NCBI RefSeq assembly: GCF_011045165.1
Contig: NZ_JAAKZI010000023.1
Location: 1-64,000, forward strand
Direction of reading: 5' to 3'
DNA from: Arthrobacter silviterrae
GTDB lineage: Bacteria; Actinomycetota; Actinomycetes; Actinomycetales; Micrococcaceae
Length of the DNA stretch: 64,000 bases
Both the position numbers and the translations under genes were made by a program. Each line of letters opens with the position of its first letter. Position 1 is the stretch's first letter. Positions 21,058 to 34,065 of the stretch are shown piece by piece. Below the pieces are notes generated by a model. The model saw only the letters and a list, made by a program, of their open reading frames with translations, had not been told where the DNA came from and made no database searches.

Positions 21058-21099
21058 CAAGGAACGACGCCGGAACCCGGGTTCCGGCGTCGTTCCTTG
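21058..21099. terminator. Perfect 42-base palindrome after rlmN
   Basis: Arms of 21 bases (CAAGGAACGACGCCGGAACCC and its complement) with no spacer, starting 23 bases after the rlmN stop. A long cruciform/hairpin that should terminate rlmN. The conserved DUF2695 leader begins 15 bases later. Confidence 0.85.
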
Positions 21100-21113: not shown

Positions 21114-21212
21114 CCTCCACAGGCGTGGCCGGCCGCCCCGTCGTCCACATTTCGGTACGGGGCCATGGTGTGGGTCGCCTCCCGGCGCAATGCTTGAATT
21201 TCAGGCAAGGAG
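21114..21212 (+). promoter_or_regulatory. Twin TCCACA leader, copy A (upstream of DUF2695-A)
   Basis: First box TCCACA at 21116, core GGCGTGGCC, second box TCCACATTT at 21144. Box starts are exactly 28 bases apart, as in the copies at 27949, 28961 and 32042. An AAGGAG ribosome site follows at 21207, with the ATG 74 bases after the second box. The second box with its preceding bases (TCGTCCACA) is one change from the actinobacterial DnaA-box consensus TTGTCCACA. Confidence 0.7.
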
Positions 21213-21217
21213 TCGGC

Positions 21218-21643
21218 ATGAACACAGCGCAGCACATGGACGGGGCCCTTCCCGCAGCCGCCAGGCCCGCGGATCCCGTGCCCGGGGAATGCTTGGCTTG
21301 CTATATCCGCCGGCGGCTGCATGGCGGGTGCCACGGCCACGAACTGTTGGTGCGCTTCACCCTCCGGCGCCCGGGCCTGTCCCTGCCGGCGAACGTGCGC
21401 GGCTCCCCGTGCGACTGTGAAATTGTCCGCAAGATCTACGAACCATTCGTTTTCCAGATCAGGGCGGACGATGGCCGAGGCATTCCTCCCCGCCCGCTCG
21501 CCGAAGTTCGGGCCTGCCCGGGCGTGCCTTCACACTCAGCGGGTCCGTGCGGCCTGTGGGCCCCGACAATGGTCCACGCCGGGCCGCCCTGGAGCTGGTC
21601 GGTCCAATCCGAATGCCACTGCCGGGCTTGTCGCGGACCCTAG
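21218..21643 (+). CDS. DUF2695-family cysteine-rich protein A
   Basis: 141 aa from ATG 21218, which follows AAGGAG. The DUF2695 pattern is recognisable: GECLACYIRRRL (Cys25, Cys28), SPCDCEIV (Cys65, Cys67), then CPGV...GPCGLW (Cys100, Cys111). It has an unusual extra tail with CHCRAC (Cys133, 135, 138). The segment between the first two Cys pairs is shorter than in copies B and C. The paired cysteines suggest zinc binding; no function is known. The last four bases overlap the convergent Pth2-like gene. Confidence 0.72.
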   Translation: MNTAQHMDGALPAAARPADPVPGECLACYIRRRLHGGCHGHELLVRFTLRRPGLSLPANVRGSPCDCEIVRKIYEPFVFQIRADDGRGIPPRPLAEVRACPGVPSHSAGPCGLWAPTMVHAGPPWSWSVQSECHCRACRGP

Positions 21644-22299
21644 TGCCGGCCGAACTCCGTGACCACATAGGCGGTGGTGGAGCCTGGTTCGATTTCGGTG
21701 CGCCCGGCGTCCTGGATGACAGGCCCGGCCGCGCGGCGCGCGCCCTTGCGGAATTCCCGGGCGCCCGCATGAACAATGCCGACCGGGAACCCGGCATCCG
21801 CCCACGCAGCCACGGCGGGCTGTCCGGCGTCGAGCAGCCAGGCAAACAGGGCATGGGCGGCCTGCGCGGCGGCCTTCCCGGTGGACATGTCCAGCGAGCC
21901 GTTGAGCACGATGGTTAGCGGCTGGGGCGGGAGGGGTTCGCCGTCGGGCAGCCGGGTGCCGGAAACCTGGAGCTTGGCCAGCAGCTTTGGCATCGTATCG
22001 GCCGGCATGGGGGGCAGGCCTGCGGCGCGGGCGGCGCCCACCTCGGCCAGGGCGTGGTCGGGGAAGGCCGCCAGCACCTTGGCGAACATTTTCGCGTCCG
22101 CCCGGCGCACGGACTTCGCGAAGGCGCCTTCCGCCCAGGCGCGCCAATCGGGGTTGTCAGGCCCCAGCAGGTACGCCCGGACCGACGCCAGGGCGGCCGC
22201 GGCAATGCCGGCATCCTGGCCCGCCGGGTCCACCCGGTCCACGAGCAAAATGATGGGCTGGACCAGCTCGCGGGGCCTGCGTTCGGTAAATTCAGTCAC
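21640..22299 (-). CDS. Peptidyl-tRNA hydrolase-like protein (Pth2 fold)
   Basis: 219 aa. Residues ~127-219 carry the Pth2 pattern: a conserved strand (LTIVLNGSLDMSTGKAAAQA), AHALFAWL, and the C-terminal IQDAGRTEIEPGSTTAYVV (Pth2 has IRDAGRTEIAPGS). Residues 1-120 are an additional Ala-rich helical domain. Pth2 enzymes release peptides from peptidyl-tRNA and are mainly archaeal/eukaryotic; bacteria normally use unrelated Pth. Whether this one is active cannot be read here. Divergent from the LacI gene. Confidence 0.75.
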   Translation of the reverse strand: MTEFTERRPRELVQPIILLVDRVDPAGQDAGIAAAALASVRAYLLGPDNPDWRAWAEGAFAKSVRRADAKMFAKVLAAFPDHALAEVGAARAAGLPPMPADTMPKLLAKLQVSGTRLPDGEPLPPQPLTIVLNGSLDMSTGKAAAQAAHALFAWLLDAGQPAVAAWADAGFPVGIVHAGAREFRKGARRAAGPVIQDAGRTEIEPGSTTAYVVTEFGRH

Positions 22300-22375
22300 C
22301 CGTCAAGACTATGCCGTGGGCGCGACAGGGGTTGCGCCGGAATTCGCCGCCGGATCGTATTGACGGCGGAAAATA

Positions 22376-22385
22376 TAAGCGCTTA
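22376..22385. promoter_or_regulatory. LacI-type operator
   Basis: TAAGCGCTTA, a perfect palindrome with the central CG typical of LacI-family operators, 22 bases before the regulator's ATG. It probably mediates autoregulation and control of the downstream GH65 genes. Confidence 0.7.
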
Positions 22386-22407
22386 CAGTGGTCCTTGACG
22401 GTGCGGC

Positions 22408-23481
22408 ATGTCCACCGGAAAACACTTTTCGGAAAGGTCTGGTCCGCATCAATTGGTGATATCCCAGCGCGCCACCATCCAGGACGTCGCCCTGCTGTCG
22501 GGGCTGTCCATTTGCACTGTTTCACGGGCCCTGAGAAATCTGCCCAACGTCTCCGAAAAATCCCAGCAGCTGGTGGCGCAGGCGGCGGAGAAACTGGGCT
22601 ACAAGGCATCCTCCGCCGCGGCACGGCTGGCCGGCGGGAGCACCGGCTCCGTGGCCATTGTTGCCCCGACGGCCACCTCCTGGTTCTTCGCACAGGCCGT
22701 GGAGGCCGCCGAAGAAGTGTTTGCCGACAGCGGGTGGGACCCCCTGCTAATCAGCCTGCGCAACAAGCCAAGCGTCCGCAAGCAGCTCTTTGGCGACTTG
22801 ACCGCCCTGTCCCAGCGGGTGGACGGCGTGCTGCTGCTGAACGTGGACCTCGACGCCGATGAAATTGCCGCCCTCCATGCCTCCCCGCTGGCTGTGGTCA
22901 GCGTTGGCATGAGCCACGTGCCGTGGGACAACGTGGGGATCGATGACGAGCAGGCTGCCTGGACAGCCACCGGCCACCTGTTGGACCTGGGGCACTGGGA
23001 CCTGGCCGTGCTCACGGGCCACGAAATGTCCGGGACGTCAGTGTGTTCCTCCCGGGACCGGCTGGCCGGATTCCACCGCGCCCTGGACTCCCATGACCTC
23101 ACTGTCCACCCCGACCTGGTGGTGGCGGCCGGCTCCACCATTGAAGGCGGGCGCCGTGCCATGACGGAAATCCTGGCCAACCGTTCGCTGCCCACGGCGG
23201 TGTTCGCGGCCTGCGATGAGGCCGCGTTTGGCGCGCTCATGGCGCTGCGGGAGCACGGAAAGTCTGCGCCCCGGGACGTATCCGTGGTGGGCCTGGACGA
23301 CCACCCCATGAGCTGGTTCATGGGGCTGAGCACTGTGGCCCAGCCCGTGGCAGACCAGGGCGCCTTCGCCGCCAACCTGATGTGTGAAAGGCTTCAGGAT
23401 CCCCTCGTCCCGACTGAAGGGTCCCGGCATATGCTGGGAGTGAAGCTCATTGAACGCAAGACCACCCGCCGCAAGCGCTGA
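22408..23481 (+). CDS. LacI-family transcriptional regulator
   Basis: 357 aa. The N-terminal HTH is at about residues 16-62 (ATIQDVALLSGLSICTVSRALRN, then KLGYKAS). A periplasmic-binding-protein-like sugar domain follows (residues 70-350). The first gene of a run with a beta-phosphoglucomutase-like HAD protein and a GH65 phosphorylase, so its ligand is probably an alpha-glucoside or its phosphorylated product. The initial ~15 residues before the HTH are unusual; a later start at VISQRATI is possible. Confidence 0.92.
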   Translation: MSTGKHFSERSGPHQLVISQRATIQDVALLSGLSICTVSRALRNLPNVSEKSQQLVAQAAEKLGYKASSAAARLAGGSTGSVAIVAPTATSWFFAQAVEAAEEVFADSGWDPLLISLRNKPSVRKQLFGDLTALSQRVDGVLLLNVDLDADEIAALHASPLAVVSVGMSHVPWDNVGIDDEQAAWTATGHLLDLGHWDLAVLTGHEMSGTSVCSSRDRLAGFHRALDSHDLTVHPDLVVAAGSTIEGGRRAMTEILANRSLPTAVFAACDEAAFGALMALREHGKSAPRDVSVVGLDDHPMSWFMGLSTVAQPVADQGAFAANLMCERLQDPLVPTEGSRHMLGVKLIERKTTRRKR

Positions 23482-23494
23482 AGGAGCCGGAACC

Positions 23495-24229
23495 ATGACT
23501 GAAAACACCAAACGCGACTGGACCACCGCCACTGCCCTTCTCTTTGACCTCGACGGCGTGCTGACCCCCACCGCCCTGGTCCACGAACTGGCGTGGCAGC
23601 AGCTCTTTGACGGCTATCTGGCACAGACGGGGCACCGCGGCTACAGCGGCAACGACTACTTCGACTTCATCGACGGCAAACCGCGCTTTGACGGCGTCCG
23701 GGACTTCCTAGCCTCGCGCGGGATCACCCTGCCGGAGGGGCCCCTGGACGACGACCCGGCCCACGACACCGTCCACGGGCTGGGCAACCGCAAGAACCTT
23801 GTGTTCAACTCCATCATCGCCTCCGACGGCGTGGCGCCCTACCCGGGGTCGGTGAGGTTCGTGGAAGCCGCACTGGCCCGCGGACTCAAGCTCGCCGTCG
23901 TCTCTTCCTCGCGGAACGCGCCCGCCGTGCTGAAGGCCGCCGGGCTCGACGGCGACTTCCCCGTGGTGGTGGACGGGCAGGTCGCGGCCAGGCACGGGCT
24001 GCCAGGCAAGCCGGACCACGCCACGTTCACGTACGCGGCGGAACTGCTGGGCGTGCCCACGCGCGACTGCATCGTGGTGGAGGACGCCGTCTCCGGCGTG
24101 CAGGCCGGCAGCTCGGGTGACTTCCGCGCCGTGATCGGCGTGGACCGCGGCGCCGGCCACCAGACACTGCTCGACGCCGGCGCCACCTTCGTGGTGGACG
24201 ACCTCTCCGAGCTCCTCCCGACACCCTGA
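23495..24229 (+). CDS. HAD phosphatase, beta-phosphoglucomutase-like
   Basis: 244 aa from ATG 23495, with AAGGAG just after the lacI stop. The HAD nucleophile motif is FDLDGVLTPTALVHELAW (DxD), motif II VVSSSRNA, and motifs III/IV KPDHATF and VVEDAVSGVQAG. The short helical cap and the partner gene indicate beta-phosphoglucomutase, converting beta-glucose 1-phosphate to glucose 6-phosphate. Without the GH65 neighbour a general sugar phosphatase would be equally likely. Confidence 0.85.
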   Translation: MTENTKRDWTTATALLFDLDGVLTPTALVHELAWQQLFDGYLAQTGHRGYSGNDYFDFIDGKPRFDGVRDFLASRGITLPEGPLDDDPAHDTVHGLGNRKNLVFNSIIASDGVAPYPGSVRFVEAALARGLKLAVVSSSRNAPAVLKAAGLDGDFPVVVDGQVAARHGLPGKPDHATFTYAAELLGVPTRDCIVVEDAVSGVQAGSSGDFRAVIGVDRGAGHQTLLDAGATFVVDDLSELLPTP

Positions 24230-24258
24230 CCGCAGCTTTTTCGAAGGAAAACCATCCC

Positions 24259-26625
24259 ATGGCATTGATCAGCTCAGACCGCCGCCGCTTCCCCTGCGAT
24301 CCGTGGAAGCTGGTGGAGGCGTCCCACAACCCCGACGACGACGGCACCATGGAAACGCTTATGGCGCTCGGCAACGGCCACCTGGGCATCCGCGGCTCGT
24401 ACACCCTGGGCGGAAGCGGCGTGCTCCCCGGCACCTTCATCAACGGCTTTTATGAAACGTGGGACATCAAGCACGCCGAGAACGCCTACGGCTTTGCCCG
24501 CACGGGGCAGCGGATTGTCTACGTCCCCGACGCCAGCAACTTCACCGTCAGCATTGACGGCGAGCAGCTGTCGCTGGCGGAATCCGCGGTGCTGGAATAC
24601 CGGCGCAGCATTGACTTTGCCTCGGGCATTTACGAATGCGCCGTCACCTGGGCGGCCCGCTCCGGGGCAACGGTGAAGACCAGGGTGCGCCGCGCCGTCG
24701 GCTTTGAGGCGCGCGGGCTGCTCGGCATTGAACTGGAGATTTCCGCGGACCGGGAGGTGTACGCGGACGTGGTGTCCGCCGTCGTCGACCGCCAGGACCA
24801 GCCGGCCAGCGACCAGGCACTCAGCGACCCGCGCCGCCCCGGCCGGCACGCCGACAGGATCCTGCAGCCGCTGCACCTGGAAGGCACGGACGGGACCTTG
24901 CACCTGGCATGGGAGACGGCGGCCTCGCACCAGCGCGTGGCCGTGGCCGTGGAACACCAGATCAACTCCGACGTCCAGCCCTTTGAAACCGTGGTGGCGC
25001 CGGACGAATCCACCGTCCGCTACGTCCTGGCCATTGAGCAGGGCGAAACGTTCCGGCTGGCAAAAAGCGTCAGCTACGCCGTTGCCGGGGAGAGTGCTGC
25101 CGAGGACCGCGGCGAGGAACTGGCGGCAACCGCAGCCGCGGCGCTCATCAGCGTTGACGACATCTTCGCCGACAGCACGGCCCACTACCGGCAGTATTGG
25201 GACACTGCCGACATTGTCATTGGCGGCGAGCCCGAACTGCAGCAGGCTGTCCGCTGGAACCTGTTCCAACTGGCGCAGGCCACCTCGCGGGCTGGCGTCT
25301 CCGGCATCCCCGCCAAGGGCGTCACCGGTTCCGGCTATGAGGGGCACTACTTCTGGGACCAGGAAATCTACCTCCTGCCGTACCTGACTTACACCAATCC
25401 GCAGGCTGCGCGCCAGGTGCTTGAATCCCGCCACCAGATGCTGCCCACCGCCCGGCGGCGCGCCGCCGAGCTCAGCGTGGACGGCGCCCTTTTTGCGTGG
25501 CGGACCATCAACGGGCTGGAGGCCAGCGCCTACTATGCGGCCGGCACCGCACAGTTCCACATTGCCTCCGCCATTGCCTTTGCCGCGAACCGCTACGAAT
25601 GGGCCACCGAGGACCCCACCTTCCAGCAGGAGATTGGCGACGACCTGCTCATTGAGACGGCGCGCATGTGGGTGTCGCTGGGCTTCTTCGGCAAGGACGG
25701 CATGTTCCACATCCATGGCGTGACCGGCCCGGATGAATACACGGCCGTGGTCAATGACAACCTCTACACGAACGTCATGGCCCGCTTCAACCTGCGCAAG
25801 GCGGCCGCCGTCAAGGGCCGCCCGGACGTCACGGAGCGCGAGCAGCAGGTGTGGGCGCAGGCCGCCGCGCGCATGGCCCTGCCGTACGATTCCCACCTGG
25901 GCGTTTTCAGCCAGGACGCCGACTTCATGACCCTGGAGCCGTGGGACTGGGCCACGCCGCGGGAGAAGTACCCGCTGCTGCTGCACTTCCACCCGCTGGT
26001 CATCTACCGCCACCAGGTCCTCAAGCAGGCGGACACCGTGCTGGCCATGTTCCTGCAGTGGCAGGACTTCACGGCAGAGGAAAAGCAGCGCGCCTTTGAC
26101 TTCTACGACCCCATCACCACGGGCGACTCCACCCTGTCCGCGTGTGTGCAGGGCATCATGGCAGCCGAGGTGGGCTACGGCCACACCGCGCTGAAGCACT
26201 TCACCGACGCCGTGTTCATCGACCTGGACAACACCCATGCCAACACGATTGACGGGGTGCACATCGCCTCCGCAGGGGGGATCTGGAGTTCGCTGGTGTG
26301 CGGCTTCGCCGGCATGCGCGACCAGGCCGACATGCTCCACTTCGACCCCCGCCTGCCTGCCGGCTGGGACAGCCTGTCCTTCAAGCTGACGGTCCGCGGC
26401 GTGCTGCTCTCCGTGGTGCTGGTCCAGGACTCCATCACCTTCAGCCTTGCCGGAGGGCACGACGCCGGCCCGCTCACCGTCGCCGTGCGCGGCACCACCG
26501 TCGAACTCATCCCGGGCGACGACGCCAAGGTGGCCCTTGAACCGGCACCTGTGGCCTCGCCGTCGATCTTCCCCAGCGCCTTCCCGACGACAGGAATCCC
26601 GATTATCGGCAAGGGGCTCTCCTAA
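24259..26625 (+). CDS. Glycoside hydrolase family 65 alpha-glucoside phosphorylase
   Basis: 788 aa, full family length. An N-terminal beta-sandwich (about 1-270) is followed by an (alpha/alpha)6 barrel and a C-terminal sheet. The catalytic acid is Glu493 in HIHGVTGPDEYTAVVNDN. Other conserved blocks are GYEGHYFWDQEIYLLP and the substrate loop STLSACVQGIMAAEVG. GH65 enzymes split maltose, trehalose, kojibiose or similar with phosphate to give beta-glucose 1-phosphate; pairing with the HAD gene supports this. The disaccharide cannot be assigned. Confidence 0.93.
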   Translation: MALISSDRRRFPCDPWKLVEASHNPDDDGTMETLMALGNGHLGIRGSYTLGGSGVLPGTFINGFYETWDIKHAENAYGFARTGQRIVYVPDASNFTVSIDGEQLSLAESAVLEYRRSIDFASGIYECAVTWAARSGATVKTRVRRAVGFEARGLLGIELEISADREVYADVVSAVVDRQDQPASDQALSDPRRPGRHADRILQPLHLEGTDGTLHLAWETAASHQRVAVAVEHQINSDVQPFETVVAPDESTVRYVLAIEQGETFRLAKSVSYAVAGESAAEDRGEELAATAAAALISVDDIFADSTAHYRQYWDTADIVIGGEPELQQAVRWNLFQLAQATSRAGVSGIPAKGVTGSGYEGHYFWDQEIYLLPYLTYTNPQAARQVLESRHQMLPTARRRAAELSVDGALFAWRTINGLEASAYYAAGTAQFHIASAIAFAANRYEWATEDPTFQQEIGDDLLIETARMWVSLGFFGKDGMFHIHGVTGPDEYTAVVNDNLYTNVMARFNLRKAAAVKGRPDVTEREQQVWAQAAARMALPYDSHLGVFSQDADFMTLEPWDWATPREKYPLLLHFHPLVIYRHQVLKQADTVLAMFLQWQDFTAEEKQRAFDFYDPITTGDSTLSACVQGIMAAEVGYGHTALKHFTDAVFIDLDNTHANTIDGVHIASAGGIWSSLVCGFAGMRDQADMLHFDPRLPAGWDSLSFKLTVRGVLLSVVLVQDSITFSLAGGHDAGPLTVAVRGTTVELIPGDDAKVALEPAPVASPSIFPSAFPTTGIPIIGKGLS

Positions 26626-26717
26626 GGAGCGCCGTGGCGTCCATGTGGCACGCTTGAGGGGGCGGCATCGCTTTCGTTTGGCCGCCGCATGCCGCCGTCG
26701 AACGCCAGGAGCCTGCC

Positions 26718-27929
26718 ATGAACCGTCCGCTGACCGTTGCCGCACGGGCCAAGGTCCCGCCGTTCCAGGTCATGGACATCCTGTCCCGCGTGGCCGAGCT
26801 CCGGGCCGCGGGCAGGGACGTCATCTCACTGTGCGCGGGGGAACCAGGCGGGGGAGCGCCGTCGGACGTCTCTGCGGCGGCCGCGGCGGTTCATGCCGCG
26901 GGCACACCCTTGACGTATACGCCCGCCCTCGGCATCGCGGAGCTCCGGGACGCCATCGCCGGGCACTATCGGCGCTGGTACGGCCTGGACATCCCGGCCC
27001 GCAACGTGGCCGTGACCACGGGATCCTCCGGCGCGTTCCTGCTGACATTCCTCTCTGCCTTCAACGCCGGCGACCGCGTGGCACTGGCCCGCCCCGGCTA
27101 CCCCGCCTACAAGAACATCCTTAGGGCCCTGGGCATCGAGGTCATTGAGCTGGACTGCGGCCCTGAATCCAGGTTCCAGCCCACCCCGGAATTGCTCGAC
27201 GCCGCGGCCAGGGCACACGGTCCGCTCGCCGGGCTCATGCTCGCCTCACCCGCCAACCCCACCGGCACCATGGTCTCGCGGCCCGAGCTGTCGAAACTGG
27301 CCGCCTGGTGCGCGGACCACTCTGCCCGGCTCATCAGCGACGAAATCTACCACGGCATCACCTACCCGGAACCGGGTGCACCCGACCCCCGCGGCGTCTG
27401 CGCCTGGGAGCTGGACCGGACATCCGTGGTGATCTCCAGCTTTTCTAAGTACTGGGGAATGACGGGGTGGCGGCTTGGTTGGGCCATCGTCCCGGACGAC
27501 CTCAAAGACGTAGTTGATGCGCTCGCCGGCAATGTGGCGCTGTGCCCGCCGGCTCCTGCCCAGCTGGCGGCCGTCCAGGCTTTCACCGGGCAGTCTTATG
27601 CCGAGGCGGAGCGGGCCGTTGCGGAGTTTGCACGCACCCGGGATTACCTGCTGGCGAACATGGGGCGGCTGGGCTGGGTCGACGTGGCGCCCGCCGACGG
27701 CGCGTTCTACCTTTACGCCGGCCTCGGTTCCGCGATGGACGGCTTCGCCAGTTCCCTCGACTATTGTTCGGCCGTCCTGGAGTCCGCCGGGGTTGCCGTG
27801 GTGCCGGGCCCGGACTTTGATTCCGTGGGCGGGCGGGGGGCTGTGCGGCTGAGTTTTGCCGCCGGGTACGACGCCGTCCGCGAGGGTTTTGAGCGGATCG
27901 TTGCGTTCCAGGAGGCGCGGGTCAGGTGA
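26718..27929 (+). CDS. Class I/II pyridoxal-phosphate aminotransferase
   Basis: 403 aa, fold-type I aminotransferase. PLP Lys244 is in SSFSKYWGMTGWRLGW. Other motifs are LASPANPTGTM and DEIYHGITY. It resembles aspartate/aromatic aminotransferases, but its specificity is not readable. It stands alone, ending just before the second DUF2695 leader. Confidence 0.92.
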   Translation: MNRPLTVAARAKVPPFQVMDILSRVAELRAAGRDVISLCAGEPGGGAPSDVSAAAAAVHAAGTPLTYTPALGIAELRDAIAGHYRRWYGLDIPARNVAVTTGSSGAFLLTFLSAFNAGDRVALARPGYPAYKNILRALGIEVIELDCGPESRFQPTPELLDAAARAHGPLAGLMLASPANPTGTMVSRPELSKLAAWCADHSARLISDEIYHGITYPEPGAPDPRGVCAWELDRTSVVISSFSKYWGMTGWRLGWAIVPDDLKDVVDALAGNVALCPPAPAQLAAVQAFTGQSYAEAERAVAEFARTRDYLLANMGRLGWVDVAPADGAFYLYAGLGSAMDGFASSLDYCSAVLESAGVAVVPGPDFDSVGGRGAVRLSFAAGYDAVREGFERIVAFQEARVR

Positions 27930-27946
27930 CGTGTGGGCCCCTCGGC

Positions 27947-28044
27947 CCTGCACAGGCGGGGCCAGGGGAGCCCTTGTCCACAATTTCCCTGGGGTGCCTG
28001 TTGGAGGGCCATGGTGCGGGCAATTATTGGTCCATGGAAAGGAA
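27947..28044 (+). promoter_or_regulatory. Twin TCCACA leader, copy B (upstream of DUF2695-B)
   Basis: First box TGCACA at 27949, core GGCGGGGCC, second box TTGTCCACAATTT with TCCACA at 27977; spacing 28. TTGTCCACA is the exact actinobacterial DnaA-box consensus. An AAAGGA ribosome site and ATG follow 73 bases after the second box. Confidence 0.75.
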
Positions 28045-28049
28045 TACCC

Positions 28050-28466
28050 ATGGAATCTGAATTGCCGATCGAAGTGCAGCGTGAACTTGCCGAGCTTGGC
28101 GTCGACCTGACGCGCATCCTCGAGAATGAATGCTTATTTTGTTATGTGTATCGAATGGTGGAACTCCACGGCTGCTTCAGCTTCCAGTGGGCCCAGCAAT
28201 ATTTGGACATCCGGGCGCCCCGGTCGCGGGGGACACTGCGAAAGCTGGAAGCCTGCGGAGGATTTTGTGACTGCGAAATCATCATGAATGTTGTCAGCGC
28301 CAACGAGCCCCTCTGGAACGTTCAGGACTATGGGGACGACTTCGACGGCTTTGGGATGTCGGAGCCGGAGGACAAGCCACCGTGCCACGGAGTCGGCACA
28401 GGCTCCGTCAGCCCCTGTGCACTGTGGGACGGCAGGGGGGCCTTCCGGAGGGGAAGTTACCACTAA
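28050..28466 (+). CDS. DUF2695-family cysteine-rich protein B
   Basis: 138 aa from ATG 28050, after AAAGGA. This is the most canonical of the three copies: NECLFCYVYRMVELHGC (Cys28, Cys31), IRAPRSRGTLRKLEACGGFCDCEI (Cys73, Cys75), CHGVGTGSVSPCALW (Cys112, Cys123). Acidic N-terminus, no signal peptide, no membrane helix. DUF2695 is an uncharacterised family; the Cys pairs look like a zinc site. Confidence 0.85.
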   Translation: MESELPIEVQRELAELGVDLTRILENECLFCYVYRMVELHGCFSFQWAQQYLDIRAPRSRGTLRKLEACGGFCDCEIIMNVVSANEPLWNVQDYGDDFDGFGMSEPEDKPPCHGVGTGSVSPCALWDGRGAFRRGSYH

Positions 28467-28480
28467 CCGGCCGGGCGGCT

Positions 28481-28915
28481 TCAGTCTTGGGGATGGAACT
28501 GCTCCAGGTGCTTGGTGGGCACCCTGTCACGATCGTACGTGATGGTGTCATAGCCGTGCGGGGCGGGCTTGCCATCCGCCCCGAGGTTCACGAAGACGAT
28601 CTTTTCGATGGTCAGGATGGACTCGCGGGTAAACATGTTGCGCACTTCGGCGCGCATGGTCAGTGAGGTCCGGCCAAAATGGGTGGCCGTGAGGCCCATC
28701 TCGATGAGGTCGCCCTGCACGGCAGAGGAGACAAAGTTGATCTCCGACATGTACTTCGTCACGGCCAGGCCGTTGCCCAGCTGGACGATCGCATAGATTG
28801 CCGCTTCCTCGTCAATCCAGCGGAGCAGGCTCCCGCCAAAAAGGGTGCCATTGGCGTTGAGGTCCTCGGGACGGACCCATTTGCGGGTGTGAAACGTAAT
28901 ATCGCCGTTGCTCAT
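28481..28915 (-). CDS. Acyl-CoA thioesterase (hotdog fold)
   Basis: 144 aa YciA/ACOT-type thioesterase. The hotdog helix motif is NANGTLFGGSLLRWIDEEAA, then MSEINFVSSAVQGDLIEM and GRTSLTMRAEV. It hydrolyses acyl-CoA esters; the chain length is unknown. Single gene on the minus strand between two plus-strand DUF2695 genes. Confidence 0.88.
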   Translation of the reverse strand: MSNGDITFHTRKWVRPEDLNANGTLFGGSLLRWIDEEAAIYAIVQLGNGLAVTKYMSEINFVSSAVQGDLIEMGLTATHFGRTSLTMRAEVRNMFTRESILTIEKIVFVNLGADGKPAPHGYDTITYDRDRVPTKHLEQFHPQD

Positions 28916-28957
28916 GAGCTGAATTTACCGTTGAAACCGGTGAAGACAGGCATTGAG

Positions 28958-29057
28958 TCCTCCACTGGCGGGGCTGGCTGGCACCTTTCCCACAATTTTG
29001 GATGGGTCCCTTTTGCCATGCTCCCCGGGTTGGGAGGGTGGAATTGTCGAAAGGAAA
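28958..29057 (+). promoter_or_regulatory. Twin TCCACA leader, copy C (upstream of DUF2695-C)
   Basis: First box TCCACT at 28961, core GGCGGGGCT, second box CCCACAATTT at 28989; spacing 28. An AAAGGA site follows at 29050, with the ATG 74 bases after the second box. This is the most degenerate copy in the boxes but the core is intact. Confidence 0.7.
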
Positions 29058-29062
29058 AGTCC

Positions 29063-29512
29063 ATGGAAGACAACTACGGGCCGGGCGCTGTTGGGCCAGG
29101 TGGAACAGATAATGAAGTGGCGCAGGTGTTCAGGGAATTGACCGGCACCTTCATGGTTCCCCACCCCAACGAGTGCCTGATCTGCTTTCTCATGCGGGGC
29201 ATGTCCTTGTTGAAGCAGTCCGGCTTTGAAATGACAGCCATCTATCAGAAGTTCAACGCACCGAGGGCCACGCAACTACACCGGCGGCTCCTGGGGATGG
29301 GGGTGTACGGTGACTGCCACCTTCTTCAGCGCGGCGTGACGTTCAATGCGGCCGTCTGGGAACCGGACTGCTGCCCGGATTGCGGCCTACCCTATGCTGC
29401 GCCGAACTGCTTGGAAGTCCGGCACGGTTCCACCCAGCCGTGCAAATTGTGGCGGTGGCGCCGGGACGTGGAGCGCGAGAGGTTCAATGCCCTGTGGGAC
29501 GGCCGGTATTGA
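29063..29512 (+). CDS. DUF2695-family cysteine-rich protein C
   Basis: 149 aa from ATG 29063. It has NECLICFLMRGM (Cys38, Cys41), NAPRATQLHRRLLGMGVYGDCHL (Cys85) and CLEVRHGSTQPCKLW (Cys116, Cys127). It departs from copies A and B in having GDCH where they have CDCE, and in an added CCPDC cluster (Cys103, 104, 107). So one ligand of the usual site is lost and others gained. Function unknown. Confidence 0.82.
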   Translation: MEDNYGPGAVGPGGTDNEVAQVFRELTGTFMVPHPNECLICFLMRGMSLLKQSGFEMTAIYQKFNAPRATQLHRRLLGMGVYGDCHLLQRGVTFNAAVWEPDCCPDCGLPYAAPNCLEVRHGSTQPCKLWRWRRDVERERFNALWDGRY

Positions 29513-29625
29513 CGCAACGGGAGGCGCTGGCCGTCCCGCTCCGGGTGCCGTAGGGTCATGGAACCAGGCGGACCAAGCCATGACACTGCAGTCGGGCATT
29601 TTTCCCGCCGGGCAGGGGAAATCAA

Positions 29626-30462
29626 TTGGCACCCAGCGTCGAAGGCGAATCAGGCAGCGGCCGGCCAGGGCCAGGAGACCTGCGGGACAGGATGCCCGCA
29701 CAGTCAGTCATCGCCGAACTGTTGGATGGGCAGTCGCTTGTTCCGCCCCGCGGTTTCATGCGGCGCCTTTTTGGGGTCGACCCGCTGTCCCGGGAAACGA
29801 AATCCTGGTACCGTGGCGCCCTGGGCGAGCTCGAAGTGGCGCGCGTCCTGGCCGGATTGGGTCCGGAATACACGGTGCTGCATGCTGTTCCGGTGGGCGC
29901 GGGAACGTCGGACATCGACCACATAGTTATTGGCCCGACCGGTGTCTTCACGGTGAACACAAAGAACCACTCCGGGAAAAAGGTTTGGGTTGCGGGCCGG
30001 ACACTCATGGTCAGCGGCGCCAGGCAGCCCCACATCCGCGATTCCGTGTTTGAGGCAAAGCGGGCAGCCAAGCTCCTCAGCCAGGCAATCGGACAGCCCG
30101 TGGCAGTGACGCCTCTCATAGTGGTGGTTGACCCAGCCGAGCTAAATGTGAAGGAAAAACCTGATGGGGTGGAAGTGCTCTCCAGCCGCAGCTTGCTGCG
30201 ATGGTTCAGCCGGGGGCCCCGGCTCCTTTCAGCCGGGGAGGCACAAGGGATTGCGGCGGCGGCTTGCCGTCCCGGCCTTTGGCACCGTGATTCTCCGGAT
30301 GACGGCGACCCAGTGGCGTTGATGGCCCGCTTCGAAACGCTGCGCCGTGCCGTCCGGAGCGCCTACCGGCGACGGATCGGGTGGGCGTTTGCGATGCTGG
30401 CCGGCCTCTTTGTTTCCATACTGGCCGCGTACCAGGTGTATCTTGGCCTGCTGGTCCGTTAG
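29626..30462 (+). CDS. NERD-domain protein with C-terminal membrane helix
   Basis: 278 aa from TTG 29626 (GGGGAA seven bases upstream); ATG 29692 is an alternative giving 256 aa. The NERD (nuclease-related) domain spans about 62-175: YRGALGELEVARVLAGL, then the (D/E)xK-like core SDIDHIVIGPTGVFTVNTKNH. A hydrophobic helix at about 252-272 close to the C-terminus suggests membrane anchoring. NERD domains are thought to act on DNA, but most are uncharacterised. It follows DUF2695-C by 113 bases. Confidence 0.82.
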   Translation: MAPSVEGESGSGRPGPGDLRDRMPAQSVIAELLDGQSLVPPRGFMRRLFGVDPLSRETKSWYRGALGELEVARVLAGLGPEYTVLHAVPVGAGTSDIDHIVIGPTGVFTVNTKNHSGKKVWVAGRTLMVSGARQPHIRDSVFEAKRAAKLLSQAIGQPVAVTPLIVVVDPAELNVKEKPDGVEVLSSRSLLRWFSRGPRLLSAGEAQGIAAAACRPGLWHRDSPDDGDPVALMARFETLRRAVRSAYRRRIGWAFAMLAGLFVSILAAYQVYLGLLVR

Positions 30463-30497
30463 CGCTCGCAGCAGCCTAAATTATTGAATCCACGTTT

Positions 30498-30558
30498 CCC
30501 GAACCGGCACTTAACGGGGATGTTGGGCCGCAACACACCCGTTAAGTGCCCGTTCGGG
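30498..30558. repeat. Long palindrome, second copy of the 1863 family
   Basis: Inverted repeat with arms of about 28 bases: CCCGAACCGGCACTTAACGG and CCGTTAAGTGCCCGTTCGGG, one mismatch in the outer stem and a variable centre. It lies between the convergent ends of the NERD gene and purB, the same kind of position as the copy at 1863-1923, and shares its core sequence. Confidence 0.78.
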
Positions 30559-30568
30559 GAGGGAGTGG

Positions 30569-32011
30569 CTACTTCGCCAGGTGGTCCACCAGAGATTCGG
30601 CAATGCCGATGTACTTGCCCGGCGTGAGTGCCAGCAGGCGTTCCTGGGCGCCGTCGGACAGGCCCAGGCCGGAAACGAACTCCTGCATGCGGGCGGCGTC
30701 CACGCGGTGGCCGCGGGTGAGGTCCTTGAGTCGCTCATAAGGGTCCTCCATGCCGGGGACCCCGGCGATGGCCTCCGCGCGCATCACCATCTGGACGGCC
30801 TCGGCGAGCACCTCCCAATTGTGGTCAAGGTCGTTGGCCAGCACGGCTTCCGCAGTGTCGAGCCGGCCCAAGCCGCCAAGGACGTTGCTGATGGCAAGCA
30901 GCGAGTGGCCGAAGGCGACGCCGATGTTGCGCTGGCTCGAGGAGTCGGTGAGGTCCCGCTGCCAGCGGCTGGTGACGAGCGTGGCGCCCAAGGTGTCGAG
31001 CAGGGCGTTGGAGATCTCCAGGTTCGCCTCGGCATTTTCAAAGCGGATCGGGTTCACCTTGTGCGGCATGGTGGAGGAGCCGGTGGCGCCGGGCACCGGG
31101 ATCTGCGCGAAGTAGCCGATGGAGATGTAGCTCCACACATCCGTGCACAGGTTGTGCAGGATCCGGTTGAAGCGCGCCACATCGGCGTAGAGCTCGGCCT
31201 GCCAGTCGTGGGACTCGATCTGGGTGGTCAGGGGGTTCCAGGTCAGGCCCAGGCCCTCGACGAAGTTCCGGGCCACGTCCTGCCAGTTGGCTTCCGGCAC
31301 GGACGCATAATGCGCGGCGTAGGTGCCGGTGGCCCCGTTGATCTTGCCCAGGTATTCAGTTTTGGCGATGCGGTCCAGCTGGCGGGTCAGGCGGTGTGCC
31401 GTGACTGCCAGTTCCTTGCCCAGCGTGGTGGGCGTGGCGGGCTGGCCGTGCGTGCGGGACAACATCGGGACGGCGCGGTTTTCCTCGGCCATCTCCGCGA
31501 TCTTGGCGACCAAGGTACGGGCTGCGGGCAGCCAGACGTCCTCCACGGCACCCTTGACGCCCACGGCGTAGGAGAGGTTGTTGATGTCTTCGCTGGTGCA
31601 GCCGAAGTGGACCAGCGGCTTCAGGCGCTCCAGGCCGAGGGCGGCCAGGCGCTTGCCAATGAAGTACTCCACGGCCTTGACGTCATGGACAGTGACTTTT
31701 TCAAGGTCTGCCAGTTCCTTCACCGATGAGGTGTCAAACTCGGTGACAATTTTGCGCAGCCCGGCCTGTTGCTCCGCCGTCAACGGTCCCGTGCCGGGCA
31801 ACACGGCATTGTCGCTGAGGTGAATGAACCACTCAACTTCCACGCCCACGCGGTCGCGGTTGAGCGCCGCTTCGGAAAGGTAGTCGACCAGCGGCGCCAC
31901 GGCGCCCGAGTATCGGCCGTCAAGGGGCCCCAAGGCAACGTGCTCGGAGGAAGCGGCCAGGGACAGGCGGCCGGAAGGGATGCGGGTGGTGGCAGGTGCG
32001 GTCTCAGACAT
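30569..32011 (-). CDS. purB: Adenylosuccinate lyase
   Basis: 480 aa. Fumarate-releasing step of purine synthesis (SAICAR to AICAR, adenylosuccinate to AMP). The fumarase/ASL signature GSSTMPHKVNPIRFENAEANL is at about 305-325. The general-acid region MLSRTHGQPATPTTLG is also present. The length fits the longer E. coli-type enzyme. Single gene. Confidence 0.96.
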   Translation of the reverse strand: MSETAPATTRIPSGRLSLAASSEHVALGPLDGRYSGAVAPLVDYLSEAALNRDRVGVEVEWFIHLSDNAVLPGTGPLTAEQQAGLRKIVTEFDTSSVKELADLEKVTVHDVKAVEYFIGKRLAALGLERLKPLVHFGCTSEDINNLSYAVGVKGAVEDVWLPAARTLVAKIAEMAEENRAVPMLSRTHGQPATPTTLGKELAVTAHRLTRQLDRIAKTEYLGKINGATGTYAAHYASVPEANWQDVARNFVEGLGLTWNPLTTQIESHDWQAELYADVARFNRILHNLCTDVWSYISIGYFAQIPVPGATGSSTMPHKVNPIRFENAEANLEISNALLDTLGATLVTSRWQRDLTDSSSQRNIGVAFGHSLLAISNVLGGLGRLDTAEAVLANDLDHNWEVLAEAVQMVMRAEAIAGVPGMEDPYERLKDLTRGHRVDAARMQEFVSGLGLSDGAQERLLALTPGKYIGIAESLVDHLAK

Positions 32012-32038
32012 GTCCCGATTCTTTCATGAACCGCCGTT

Positions 32039-32133
32039 TCCTCCACAGCGGGGGTGGCGCCCGGACTTGTTCACATTTGGACAAGAAGCCCTGGCGGGGA
32101 GGTTTGCTGGTCCTTAGGGTCGAAATGTAAAGG
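32039..32133 (+). promoter_or_regulatory. Twin TCCACA leader, copy D (upstream of the WXG100 pair)
   Basis: First box TCCACA at 32042, core GCGGGGGTGG, second box TTGTTCACATTT with TTCACA at 32070; spacing 28. It matches the leaders of the three DUF2695 genes although the downstream gene is unrelated. TAGGGT at 32115 is a plausible -10, 45 bases after the second box; comparable AT-rich hexamers lie 48-53 bases after it in copies A-C. Confidence 0.7.
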
Positions 32134-32466
32134 ATGGTGGGGGCGGTGAACACAGGACAGAACGGGCCGGCACAGTGCACCGGGCCCGCGGCGAATTGGC
32201 TTGTCGGCTCGTCACTGGCGGACGTCCAGTCGTTGGCTGGCAGGCTGGCGCTGCTTGCGGAGGAAGTTGACGGCGCAAGTTCAAGGTTGCAGGGAGCGGC
32301 CTCGCTTGAATGGCAGTCCATGGCCGCCGAGGCCTTCAGATCGGAATGCCAGTCGAAAATGGGTGAGCTCAGCACGGTGTCCGCACAAGTCAGGGAGGCC
32401 TCGGCAGCCGTGGCCGCCTACGCGAGGATGCTGGGAACAATGGCCGCAGCGGGGATGGGTGGTTGA
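32134..32466 (+). CDS. WXG100-family (ESAT-6-like) small protein
   Basis: 110 aa from ATG 32134; GTG at 32137 or 32146 are possible starts and the last has the better-placed GGTGGGGG site. Two helices with a central W-x-[GS] turn (LEWQSMAAEAF, about residues 62-72), the hairpin layout of WXG100 proteins secreted by type VII systems. It is followed seven bases later by a large hydrolase, typical of WXG100/effector pairs. No type VII ATPase or membrane gene is in the window. Confidence 0.72.
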   Translation: MVGAVNTGQNGPAQCTGPAANWLVGSSLADVQSLAGRLALLAEEVDGASSRLQGAASLEWQSMAAEAFRSECQSKMGELSTVSAQVREASAAVAAYARMLGTMAAAGMGG

Positions 32467-32472
32467 GGCGGC

Positions 32473-34065
32473 ATGGGCGACAACAATGGGCCGGACACCA
32501 CGTTCACCATCACCGGCGGCCCCGGGCGAATTCAGTACACGGTCTCCGCGATTGAAGCAACAAGCCGCGGAATTTCCCTGGTGGGCCAGGAACTTCACGA
32601 GATTGCCCTGACGCTGGAGGCGGAGTCCCGCTGGCTTGCCAGCGTATCGGAAAGCCTGGTGGCAACCTCGCCCGCGGGCAGGTATGCGTCACCCTTTCAC
32701 GCAACCCCTGCCCTGGACGCCATCACCTCCGCCAGGCGTTCGGCCGGAAATGCCGGGGAAAGTGTGGAAGAACTTGCACGCCACGCGGCTGCGGCAGCGG
32801 AGCGCTACGTGGCCACCGAGGGATCCGTGGCGTCCATGGAAACGGCCAAGCGGATGCAGGCACTCAGGGACGGAAGCCAGGCCTGGGCGTGGGGCCCGCT
32901 GGCCCCGGTAGTGGCGGGCGGCCAGGCGTGGAAAACGTTGCATGACGGAAGCAGGGACGGCATGCGGGACAAGGTCGAGGACATGCTCAACGACGGGCCG
33001 GCCTACCTTGCCGGATTGTTGGGGCCGGGAGTGGCGGTGCCCTACCTGCTGGGCCATTGGAACGCCAAGGGCAGGGAAGGCAACGGCGTGGTACCGGCAA
33101 TCATCGCCAGGAAGCTTTTCGACTGGGCAGGGGCCGACAGGCCCGGCCACCTGGTGATGCACCAGGTTCCTTCGGGGGAGTGGGGTGATGAGCCAGAGTC
33201 CTGGGGGCCGCCGGGCCGCGCCATGCCCGACGCGTACGACGGCGTCGCCGGTGAGGTGGCCGCCACCTTCGAGTCGATGCTCGCCGGGAGCAGGGGCGCC
33301 TACTCCTATCCGCCCGGGTCCATAGTGGTACTTCAGCTTGACCGCCCGGACGGGACCCGCGCCTGGATCGTGCACCTGCCCGGGACGGAGGACTGGTCCA
33401 CGCCGGACAGCAGCAACCCTTGGGACCTAGAAGGCGACCTGGAAGCCATGACCGCCGAACAGAGGAACCTTTTTGTCCAGAAAAAGATCCTGATTCAGGA
33501 ACTCATCGAAGGGGCGCTGGCAGACGCCGGCGCCTTGCCCACCGACGAGGTGATGATGACCGGGCACAGCGGTGGCGGCATCCACGCGGCCTCGGCGGCC
33601 TCGGATCCGGCGTTCCTGGCCAAGGTCAACGTCACCATGGTTGTCATGGCCGGTTCCCCCGGCGCGAACCACCGGGTGGCCCCGGGAATTGATGTCCTGG
33701 ACATCGAAAACGACGGCGATGTGGTGACAGCCGCAGACTACGGTCCACCGCCCGACACCCCGAACTGGGTCACCGTGACCACCCACCGGCCCGGTCCCCA
33801 AGGCGGGGTGGGCGGGGCGCACAGCGTTGACAAGTACGTCGACGACGCCGGGGAACTGGACCGCAGCGCGGACCCGGGGATCGGACGGCTGCGGGACAAG
33901 CTCAACCTGTTCCTGATGCCCGGGTTGCCCGGAGGGCCCGTGAAAGTGAGGAAGCTGGTGTACCAAGGCACTGATGTGGACGATCCAAGGCCCAAACCGC
34001 CGCCCCCACCGCCGGGACCGCCGCCACCGCCAGCGAAGGAGGGGCGCGGTGCCGGAGGGAGGTGA
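32473..34065 (+). CDS. Alpha/beta-hydrolase with N-terminal helical domain and polyproline tail
   Basis: 530 aa. Residues 1-130 are helical and WXG100/LXG-like. Residues ~260-470 form an alpha/beta-hydrolase with nucleophile Ser366 in MMTGHSGGGIHAA; a likely acid is in DIENDGDVV and His in GGAHSVDKYV. The last 30 residues are polyproline (PPPPPPGPPPPP). No signal peptide. The pairing with WXG100 suggests a type VII-exported lipase or esterase; the substrate is unknown. Four bases from the convergent YvlD-like gene. Confidence 0.75.
   Translation: MGDNNGPDTTFTITGGPGRIQYTVSAIEATSRGISLVGQELHEIALTLEAESRWLASVSESLVATSPAGRYASPFHATPALDAITSARRSAGNAGESVEELARHAAAAAERYVATEGSVASMETAKRMQALRDGSQAWAWGPLAPVVAGGQAWKTLHDGSRDGMRDKVEDMLNDGPAYLAGLLGPGVAVPYLLGHWNAKGREGNGVVPAIIARKLFDWAGADRPGHLVMHQVPSGEWGDEPESWGPPGRAMPDAYDGVAGEVAATFESMLAGSRGAYSYPPGSIVVLQLDRPDGTRAWIVHLPGTEDWSTPDSSNPWDLEGDLEAMTAEQRNLFVQKKILIQELIEGALADAGALPTDEVMMTGHSGGGIHAASAASDPAFLAKVNVTMVVMAGSPGANHRVAPGIDVLDIENDGDVVTAADYGPPPDTPNWVTVTTHRPGPQGGVGGAHSVDKYVDDAGELDRSADPGIGRLRDKLNLFLMPGLPGGPVKVRKLVYQGTDVDDPRPKPPPPPPGPPPPPAKEGRGAGGR

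Follow-up and report, generated by a model that had tools for sequence, protein, structure and literature searches.

The model competence boxes are the ComK boxes of Bacillus, the CIN box/ComX of Streptococcus, and the CRP-S/Sxy sites of the gammaproteobacteria. In other bacteria, the transformation genes include those for the Tad/Flp pilus, ComEA/EC, ComF, ComM, RecA, and SSB. According to passages of PMC4322843, Micrococcus luteus is without ComK homologues, and passages of a January 2026 paper call its competence regulon "currently unknown" (PMC12849477). Mutations at the cpaB-type gene Mlut_14650 and the HTH_17 gene Mlut_14660 alter the activity of the M. luteus comEA/EC promoter, as reported in passages among PMC4322843, PMC6667448, PMC8467076, and PMC12849477. 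Here, we describe a twin-box promoter element found in a 64,000-nucleotide (nt) stretch of Arthrobacter silviterrae (contig NZ_JAAKZI010000023.1, our G000:C23; the window), which belongs to a genome of 4.29 megabases (the home genome). Judged from sequence, the twin box is very probably the upstream control element of a natural-competence (DNA uptake, transformation) regulon in Arthrobacter-like bacteria and in the wider Micrococcales.

The window contains four leaders, A to D, with a TCCACA-like box 1 that starts at positions 21116, 27949, 28961, and 32042, and a box 2 that starts at positions 21144, 27977, 28989, and 32070, respectively. Box 1 and box 2 are exactly 28 nt apart in all four leaders, and both boxes have the same orientation, on the strand of the gene behind them. 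The pattern TCCACAGGNGGGG-N15-TCCACANTTT, with up to three mismatches, was found at four sites in the 64 kb and at none in 100 dinucleotide-preserving shuffles. A sequence-only reading of this stretch had reported the four leaders and their 28-nt spacing; both were borne out, with box 1 sitting 2–3 nt downstream of where that reading began each leader. The GGCGGGG-like core that it described is present loosely and is not fixed (GGCGTGG in A, GCGGGGG in D).

A search of the whole home genome with a pattern similar to that of the window gave 11 sites versus 1 for the reversed control. The newly found sites precede genes for a CpaB-like protein, two DUF222-type proteins, a TadZ-like protein (followed by a TadA-like protein), the yraN-comM operon, DUF3263, and DUF2461. 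R1, a sequence-only model of the 11 home sites, produced 51 matches in the home genome at an expectation value (E) ≤ 10, 20 of them at E < 0.05, and added comEA (followed by comEC), comF, an M23 peptidase gene, a DUF4244 pilin gene, an FHA/FtsK-like gene, a WXG100 gene, and more DUF222-type genes. From 30 loci, 23 home sites were kept as alignment A3, including four (L035, L037, L039, and L040) with R1 E values of 0.07–0.27. Among the loci left out, L042 has both boxes, 27 nt apart, with no convincing gene behind them, and L041, L043, and L044 have a partial motif. L033 and L038, also left out, have box 1 with its CC flank alone, before an NlpC/P60 gene and a membrane-protein-like gene, and are possible half sites. 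At L036, left out as well, two TCCACA boxes stand 35 nt apart upstream of the dnaB-like gene and are perhaps true DnaA boxes.

Genes for DNA uptake, for the uptake pilus, and for DNA processing are found behind the element. The home comEA starts 85 nt past the start of box 1, and comEC is the next gene. Three Tad/Flp promoters of the home genome carry the element: those of tadZ (TIGR03815), cpaB/RcpC, and the DUF4244 pilin gene, which lies on the tadZ contig. DNA processing is represented by yraN-comM and comF in the home genome, by ssb in the relative G024, and by recA in two other genera; dprA is presumably located behind comM, as expected from the gene order in related bacteria. Hidden Markov models assigned the home members UPF0102/YraN, Mg_chelatase/ComM, RcpC/CpaB, the CpaE homologue (TIGR03815), M23, WXG100, DUF4244, DUF2461, and DUF3263. 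The assignment of comF is to phosphoribosyltransferase/ComF, with TIGR00201 below its strict cut-off, and that of ComEA is to TIGR01259, also below cut-off. Seven home genes are of the DUF222/HNH type; three pass the Pfam DUF222 cut-off and four were assigned by reading, one of these with a sub-threshold HNH match. The FtsK-like label at L035 comes from sub-threshold FHA-type matches and reading, and that of the home AbiEi-like gene from a sub-threshold match only.

The promoters behind the twin box were aligned with offsets counted from the first T of box 1. The hexamer [TCA]ANNNT is most frequent at +73, where it occurs in 14 of 23 home sites, 15 of 22 G024 sites, and 13 of 22 sites of a second relative, G096 (mean per offset, 0.41–0.54), so that most sites have a −10-like hexamer 45 nt after box 2. 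The peak for ATG is at +85, with 9, 10, and 11 sites, respectively (mean per offset, 0.34–0.46). Because R1 and R2, a model built from the 23 home sites, stop before the −10 region, the −10 and start-codon offsets are an independent test. Box 1, box 2, the −10 hexamer, and the start codon tend toward fixed mutual distances. An ATG located 7 nt after the −10 hexamer implies a leaderless mRNA and, when this ATG is taken as +1, the boxes fall at −85 and −57. Activators that act upstream of the polymerase are commonly found at such positions. The conserved C49 and T50 and the weaker T52–T53 suggest a weak −35. The aligned sites (64-site consensus) have little sequence in common apart from the boxes, the −10, and the start region.

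The element is conserved within the genus. When any spacing between 18 and 38 nt was allowed, the exact pattern matched 98 times across 23 genomes of the genus, with one match in the home genome and with some matches being the same site in close relatives; 75 were at 28 nt, 14 at 27 nt, and nine elsewhere, with 0 for the reversed control. R2 at E ≤ 0.05 gave 22 matches in each of the two congeneric genomes G024 and G096. Of these 44 matches, 33 precede homologues (blastp E ≤ 1e-4) of home element-bearing genes, a number to which the multi-copy DUF222 and AbiEi-like families contribute in part. The other 11 include two ssb-type genes (L214 by Pfam, L252 by reading), five genes that are AbiEi-like by reading, a RecQ-like helicase gene, one gene cut by a contig end, and two chance-like matches (L230 and L251). 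Two of the five AbiEi-like genes have an AbiEi_4 match (one over cut-off) together with sub-threshold endonuclease-type matches. The AbiEi-like carriers number up to six per genome (L216, L222, L223, L224, L227, and L228 in G024; L233, L245, and L246 in G096), and some have a sub-threshold match to MTES_1575. PADLOC, applied to six proteins, returned only weak AbiEi matches, for one protein. Matches to the element are not found before random genes, and the 28-nt spacing is retained in other genomes. Of the three possibilities offered in the sequence-only reading, that of an activator-controlled regulon is supported by these results, and the regulon can now be named as the DNA-uptake (natural competence) gene set.

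The comEA promoter was followed beyond the genus. A comEA match is present in 120 of the 120 family genomes examined. The upstream regions read were 50 from the family set and those of 62 of 80 named loci, the other 18 being from distant metagenome-assembled genomes and Bacillota. A script located a leaderless-type start for 97 of these 112 regions, and the removal of 10 duplicates left 87 distinct promoters. CACA occurs at the box-2 place in 68 of the 87, although the choice of start favored CACA and the figures therefore lean toward the motif. The boxes are 27 or 29 nt apart in some comEA promoters, and box 2 alone is plain in some clades, among them Paenarthrobacter and Rothia. In the comEA promoter of genus g14 (L083), the boxes are separated by 38 nt, which exceeds 28 nt by about one helical turn.

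Since the reach of R2 is limited (matches in five of eight other genomes), the wide searches were conducted with R3, a model for which comEA promoters alone were used, 19 in number, all from other genomes and five of them congeneric. In the home genome, R3 gave 14 matches at E ≤ 1e-3, and all 14 are in the R1 list, including three of the four window leaders. Eight further genomes, from genera g15, g26, and g28 together with Psychromicrobium silvestre, a Tersicoccus, and Arthrobacter mangrovi, yielded 87 listed matches, of which 68 were scored; L288 and L296 were read only. Regulon homologues (blastp E ≤ 1e-3) follow 56 of the 68 scored matches, a count in which eight reference proteins came from the relatives' own matches, giving four self-matches (radC, tag, recA, and DUF4192), and in which some comEA matches were training sites. 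The genes new in these genomes are recA (two genera), ssb, a RadC-type gene, a methyladenine glycosylase gene, DUF4192, and an exonuclease gene. Order-wide, R3 found a match at E ≤ 1e-3 in 23 of 59 genomes; the filters of this search were strict, so that absence there is weak evidence. Nineteen of the order-wide loci were read. The gene behind the element was comEA in four genomes that belong to other families and recA in two; yraN, cpaB, DUF4192, AbiEi-like, and WXG100-type genes were found elsewhere. Box 1 is missing in some of the order-wide loci.

The element has a defined architecture, stands before a recurring set of genes, and is conserved among genomes. We infer that the element works by activation and not by repression, that both boxes serve a single regulator, that transcription starts at the predicted position, and that members are induced during competence. 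A putative activator would bind the two asymmetric TNCACA sites, which share one orientation and lie at about −85 and −57. It would bring RNA polymerase, carrying a sigma factor of the housekeeping type, to a promoter that is predicted to combine a TA(G)NNT-like −10 with no more than a weak −35. The mRNAs of many members would lack a leader, their start codon coinciding with the predicted +1, and the DUF2695 genes of the window would carry a leader of 16–17 nt. These genes and the WXG100-like/hydrolase pair of the window would then be accessory members beside a core for uptake, pilus, and recombination.

Several results weigh against a competence regulon. Neither recA nor ssb is among the home matches, though both are carriers in relatives, and DUF3263 is the only regulator-like gene found behind the element. 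Box-1 CACA is located exactly 28 nt upstream in only 19 of the 68 comEA promoters that bear box 2, and box-2 CACA is absent from 19 of the 87, including that of the home comEA (TCAACA). R2 gave 20 matches over five of eight other genomes and none in the remaining three, and 6 of the 19 order-wide loci are without a homologue of the reference set behind them. Many members, namely the DUF222, AbiEi-like, DUF2695, and DUF2461 proteins, are not known to act in transformation, and the counts come in part from multi-copy families.

Under DnaA-linked control, a possibility raised in the sequence-only reading, DnaA would bind both boxes and tie the expression of competence genes to the state of replication. 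Box 2 of copy B is TTGTCCACA, that of Paenarthrobacter and of some Rothia comEA promoters is TTATCCACA, and the second base of TNCACA is the most variable in box 2, as in the E. coli DnaA box (TTWTNCACA); the home genome encodes one Bac_DnaA_C protein over the family cut-off. However, box 1 is CCTNCACA, with CC rather than TT before it (positions −2 and −1, 63/64 and 64/64 sites), T occupies the two matching places before box 2 in only 38/64 and 35/64 sites, and the full 9-mer was not found in both boxes. In the small high-GC (guanine plus cytosine) genus g15, a terminal G or C is frequent in box 2, with the final A lost at several sites, and all sites keep to one promoter position, which replication boxes do not need. 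A second DnaA-type protein was also considered as the regulator and rejected, since none is over the cut-off, and this further weakens DnaA-linked control, which we regard as improbable.

A regulon for DNA damage, of the SOS or PafBC type, would account for the recA, ssb, radC-like, RecQ-like helicase, and 3-methyladenine glycosylase genes that carry the element in relatives, and for the mycobacterial recA P1 motif that occurs in 7 of 67 sites. Yet recA, ssb, and radC belong to the known competence genes of other bacteria, and pilus genes, comEA/EC, comF, WXG100, and an M23 peptidase would be an unusual damage set. In the set of 67, this motif follows the twin box as a sequence of its own and is confined to DUF222 promoters rather than being shared by all members. 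This explanation is quite unlikely, even more so than control by DnaA. The spread of the sites as a mobile promoter or repeat, also raised in the sequence-only reading, is suggested by the three copies within 8 kb, each before a DUF2695-family gene. This we consider hardly credible; the flanks differ, with little in common outside the boxes, the −10, and the start, and the presence of the element at orthologous core-gene promoters (comEA, comF, yraN, cpaB, and M23) in other genomes argues against it. A competence regulon is the explanation that we retain.

The DUF3263 gene (L018:1635-1946; L211) encodes a small protein that matches the "Fis family transcriptional regulator" of PDB entries 9n2n and 9n2g. 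It carries the element in the home genome and in G024 and is not among the G096 matches; it is a weak candidate for the regulator, with possible autoregulation. A second layer of control is possible at the seven sites that hold TGTCRGTG plus 8 nt between box 2 and the −10, as in the mycobacterial recA P1 damage motif, with the same −10. All seven are before DUF222-family genes (L017, L031, and L039 in the home genome; L239, L240, L243, and L250 in G096), and these DUF222 genes may respond to DNA damage as well as to competence. In the DUF222-type leaders of L029, L034, and L039, the box 2 region contains GTACACATGTTC, which is similar to a LexA-type box (GAACNNNNGTTC); this is a possible third layer of control.

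In the window, the four copies and the genes behind them are all on the plus strand. Copy A has TCCACA at both box 1 (21116–21121; R1 E 4.5e-9, copy A being an R1 training site; R3 E 4.7e-6) and box 2 (21144–21149), with the −10-like hexamer AATGCT (21189–21194) at the enriched offset of +73. In copy B, TGCACA (27949–27954; found by the pattern, R3 E 1.2e-4) is followed by TCCACA with TTG just before it (27977–27982; pattern) and by the −10-like hexamer AATTAT (28022–28027). Copy C, which was found by the pattern and R1 and is not reached by R3 at E 1e-3, has TCCACT (28961–28966), CCCACA (28989–28994; pattern), and GAGGGT (29034–29039), a poor match to a −10. Copy D has TCCACA (32042–32047; pattern, R3 E 1.3e-8), TTCACA (32070–32075; pattern), and the −10 hexamer TAGGGT (32115–32120). 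The distances from box 2 to the start codon are as the sequence-only reading had given them: 74 nt in copies A and C, 73 nt in copy B, and 64 nt (ATG) or 76 nt (GTG) in copy D.

That reading had placed three DUF2695 genes and a WXG100/hydrolase pair behind these leaders. Gene B (28050–28466, 138 amino acids (aa)) is the only one of the three that passes the Pfam DUF2695 cut-off (PF10905, E 2e-13); gene A (21218–21643, 141 aa) and gene C (29063–29512, 149 aa) have no Pfam match of their own and are assigned by their similarity to B (E 1e-8 and 4e-14, respectively, single comparisons). The three genes start 16–17 nt later than the leaderless position, behind purine-rich stretches. The predicted DUF2695 fold was poor (mean predicted local distance difference test score of 48.6), and the model was not used. 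Behind copy D, a small protein of 110 aa (32134–32466) does precede the gene for a predicted alpha/beta hydrolase of 530 aa (32473–34065), but their Pfam matches (T7SS_signal and Abhydrolase_8) are both sub-threshold and the small protein has none to WXG100; we call it WXG100-like from its size and its position before the hydrolase gene. In G024 the element is likewise followed by a counterpart of this hydrolase (L218, 40% identical over 505 residues), with a small WXG100-like frame before it. A NERD-domain gene (29626–30462) lies directly 3′ of gene C and is without its own twin box. Strong intergenic inverted repeats at 21058–21099 and 30498–30558 are likely terminators.

A more extended scheme is possible and, in our judgment, somewhat doubtful. 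A single master activator of the Micrococcales would drive DNA uptake (Tad pilus, ComEA/EC), recombination (RecA, SSB, ComM), and an attack on neighbors, along with DUF222-HNH and AbiEi-like proteins, some DUF222 genes being also damage-controlled, and DUF2695 would be a new competence-associated family. If so, the attack arm would consist of type VII-like WXG100 proteins with a hydrolase and of the cell-wall peptidase, and neighbors would be lysed and their DNA imported and processed. The element supplies a list of candidate members of the regulon, defines the geometry of the promoter precisely, and can serve as a bait with which to isolate the regulator, and it may help to predict transformable actinobacteria. 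It would also link the competent state to the orphan families DUF2695, DUF222-HNH, DUF4192, and AbiEi-like and to small type VII-like proteins.

Among the open-access papers listed for DUF2695, DUF222, DUF3263, Fis-family structures, and WXG100 with competence, none concerned the twin-box element, and such a cis-element is not described for M. luteus in the passages of PMC4322843, PMC6667448, PMC8467076, and PMC12849477 that were available. The twin box shares with the actinobacterial DnaA box the TNCACA core, with TTGTCCACA in box 2 of copy B, and differs from it in the CC before box 1 and in the strict promoter geometry. The mycobacterial recA P1/PafBC promoter is given as tTGTCRgtg-8-TannnT in passages of PMC5656591; its motif is present in 7 of the 67 twin-box sites with the −10 in common, whereas here it is confined to DUF222 promoters and is an element separate from the twin box. 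Vibrio cholerae QstR/TfoX (PMC6237807) similarly places uptake and secretion-type genes under one control, the latter being represented here by the WXG100 and FHA/FtsK-like genes. Unlike the type VI co-control of V. cholerae, the genes are type VII-like, the element and the phylum are different, and the role of the small proteins is predicted. The sequence of the element (twin TNCACA, 28 nt) is unrelated to those of the model competence boxes, the 64-site consensus showing no ComK, CIN, or CRP-S-type conserved sequence when judged by eye only, and its promoters are by prediction largely leaderless. It is nevertheless similar to the model boxes in that one short element is located before comEA/EC, pilus, comM/dprA, ssb, and recA genes, and to ComK in that paired boxes are placed upstream of the promoter. 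The kinds of machinery genes behind it are the same as those of the M. luteus competence system, with its Tad/Flp pili and comEA/EC, as described in passages of the four M. luteus papers cited above.

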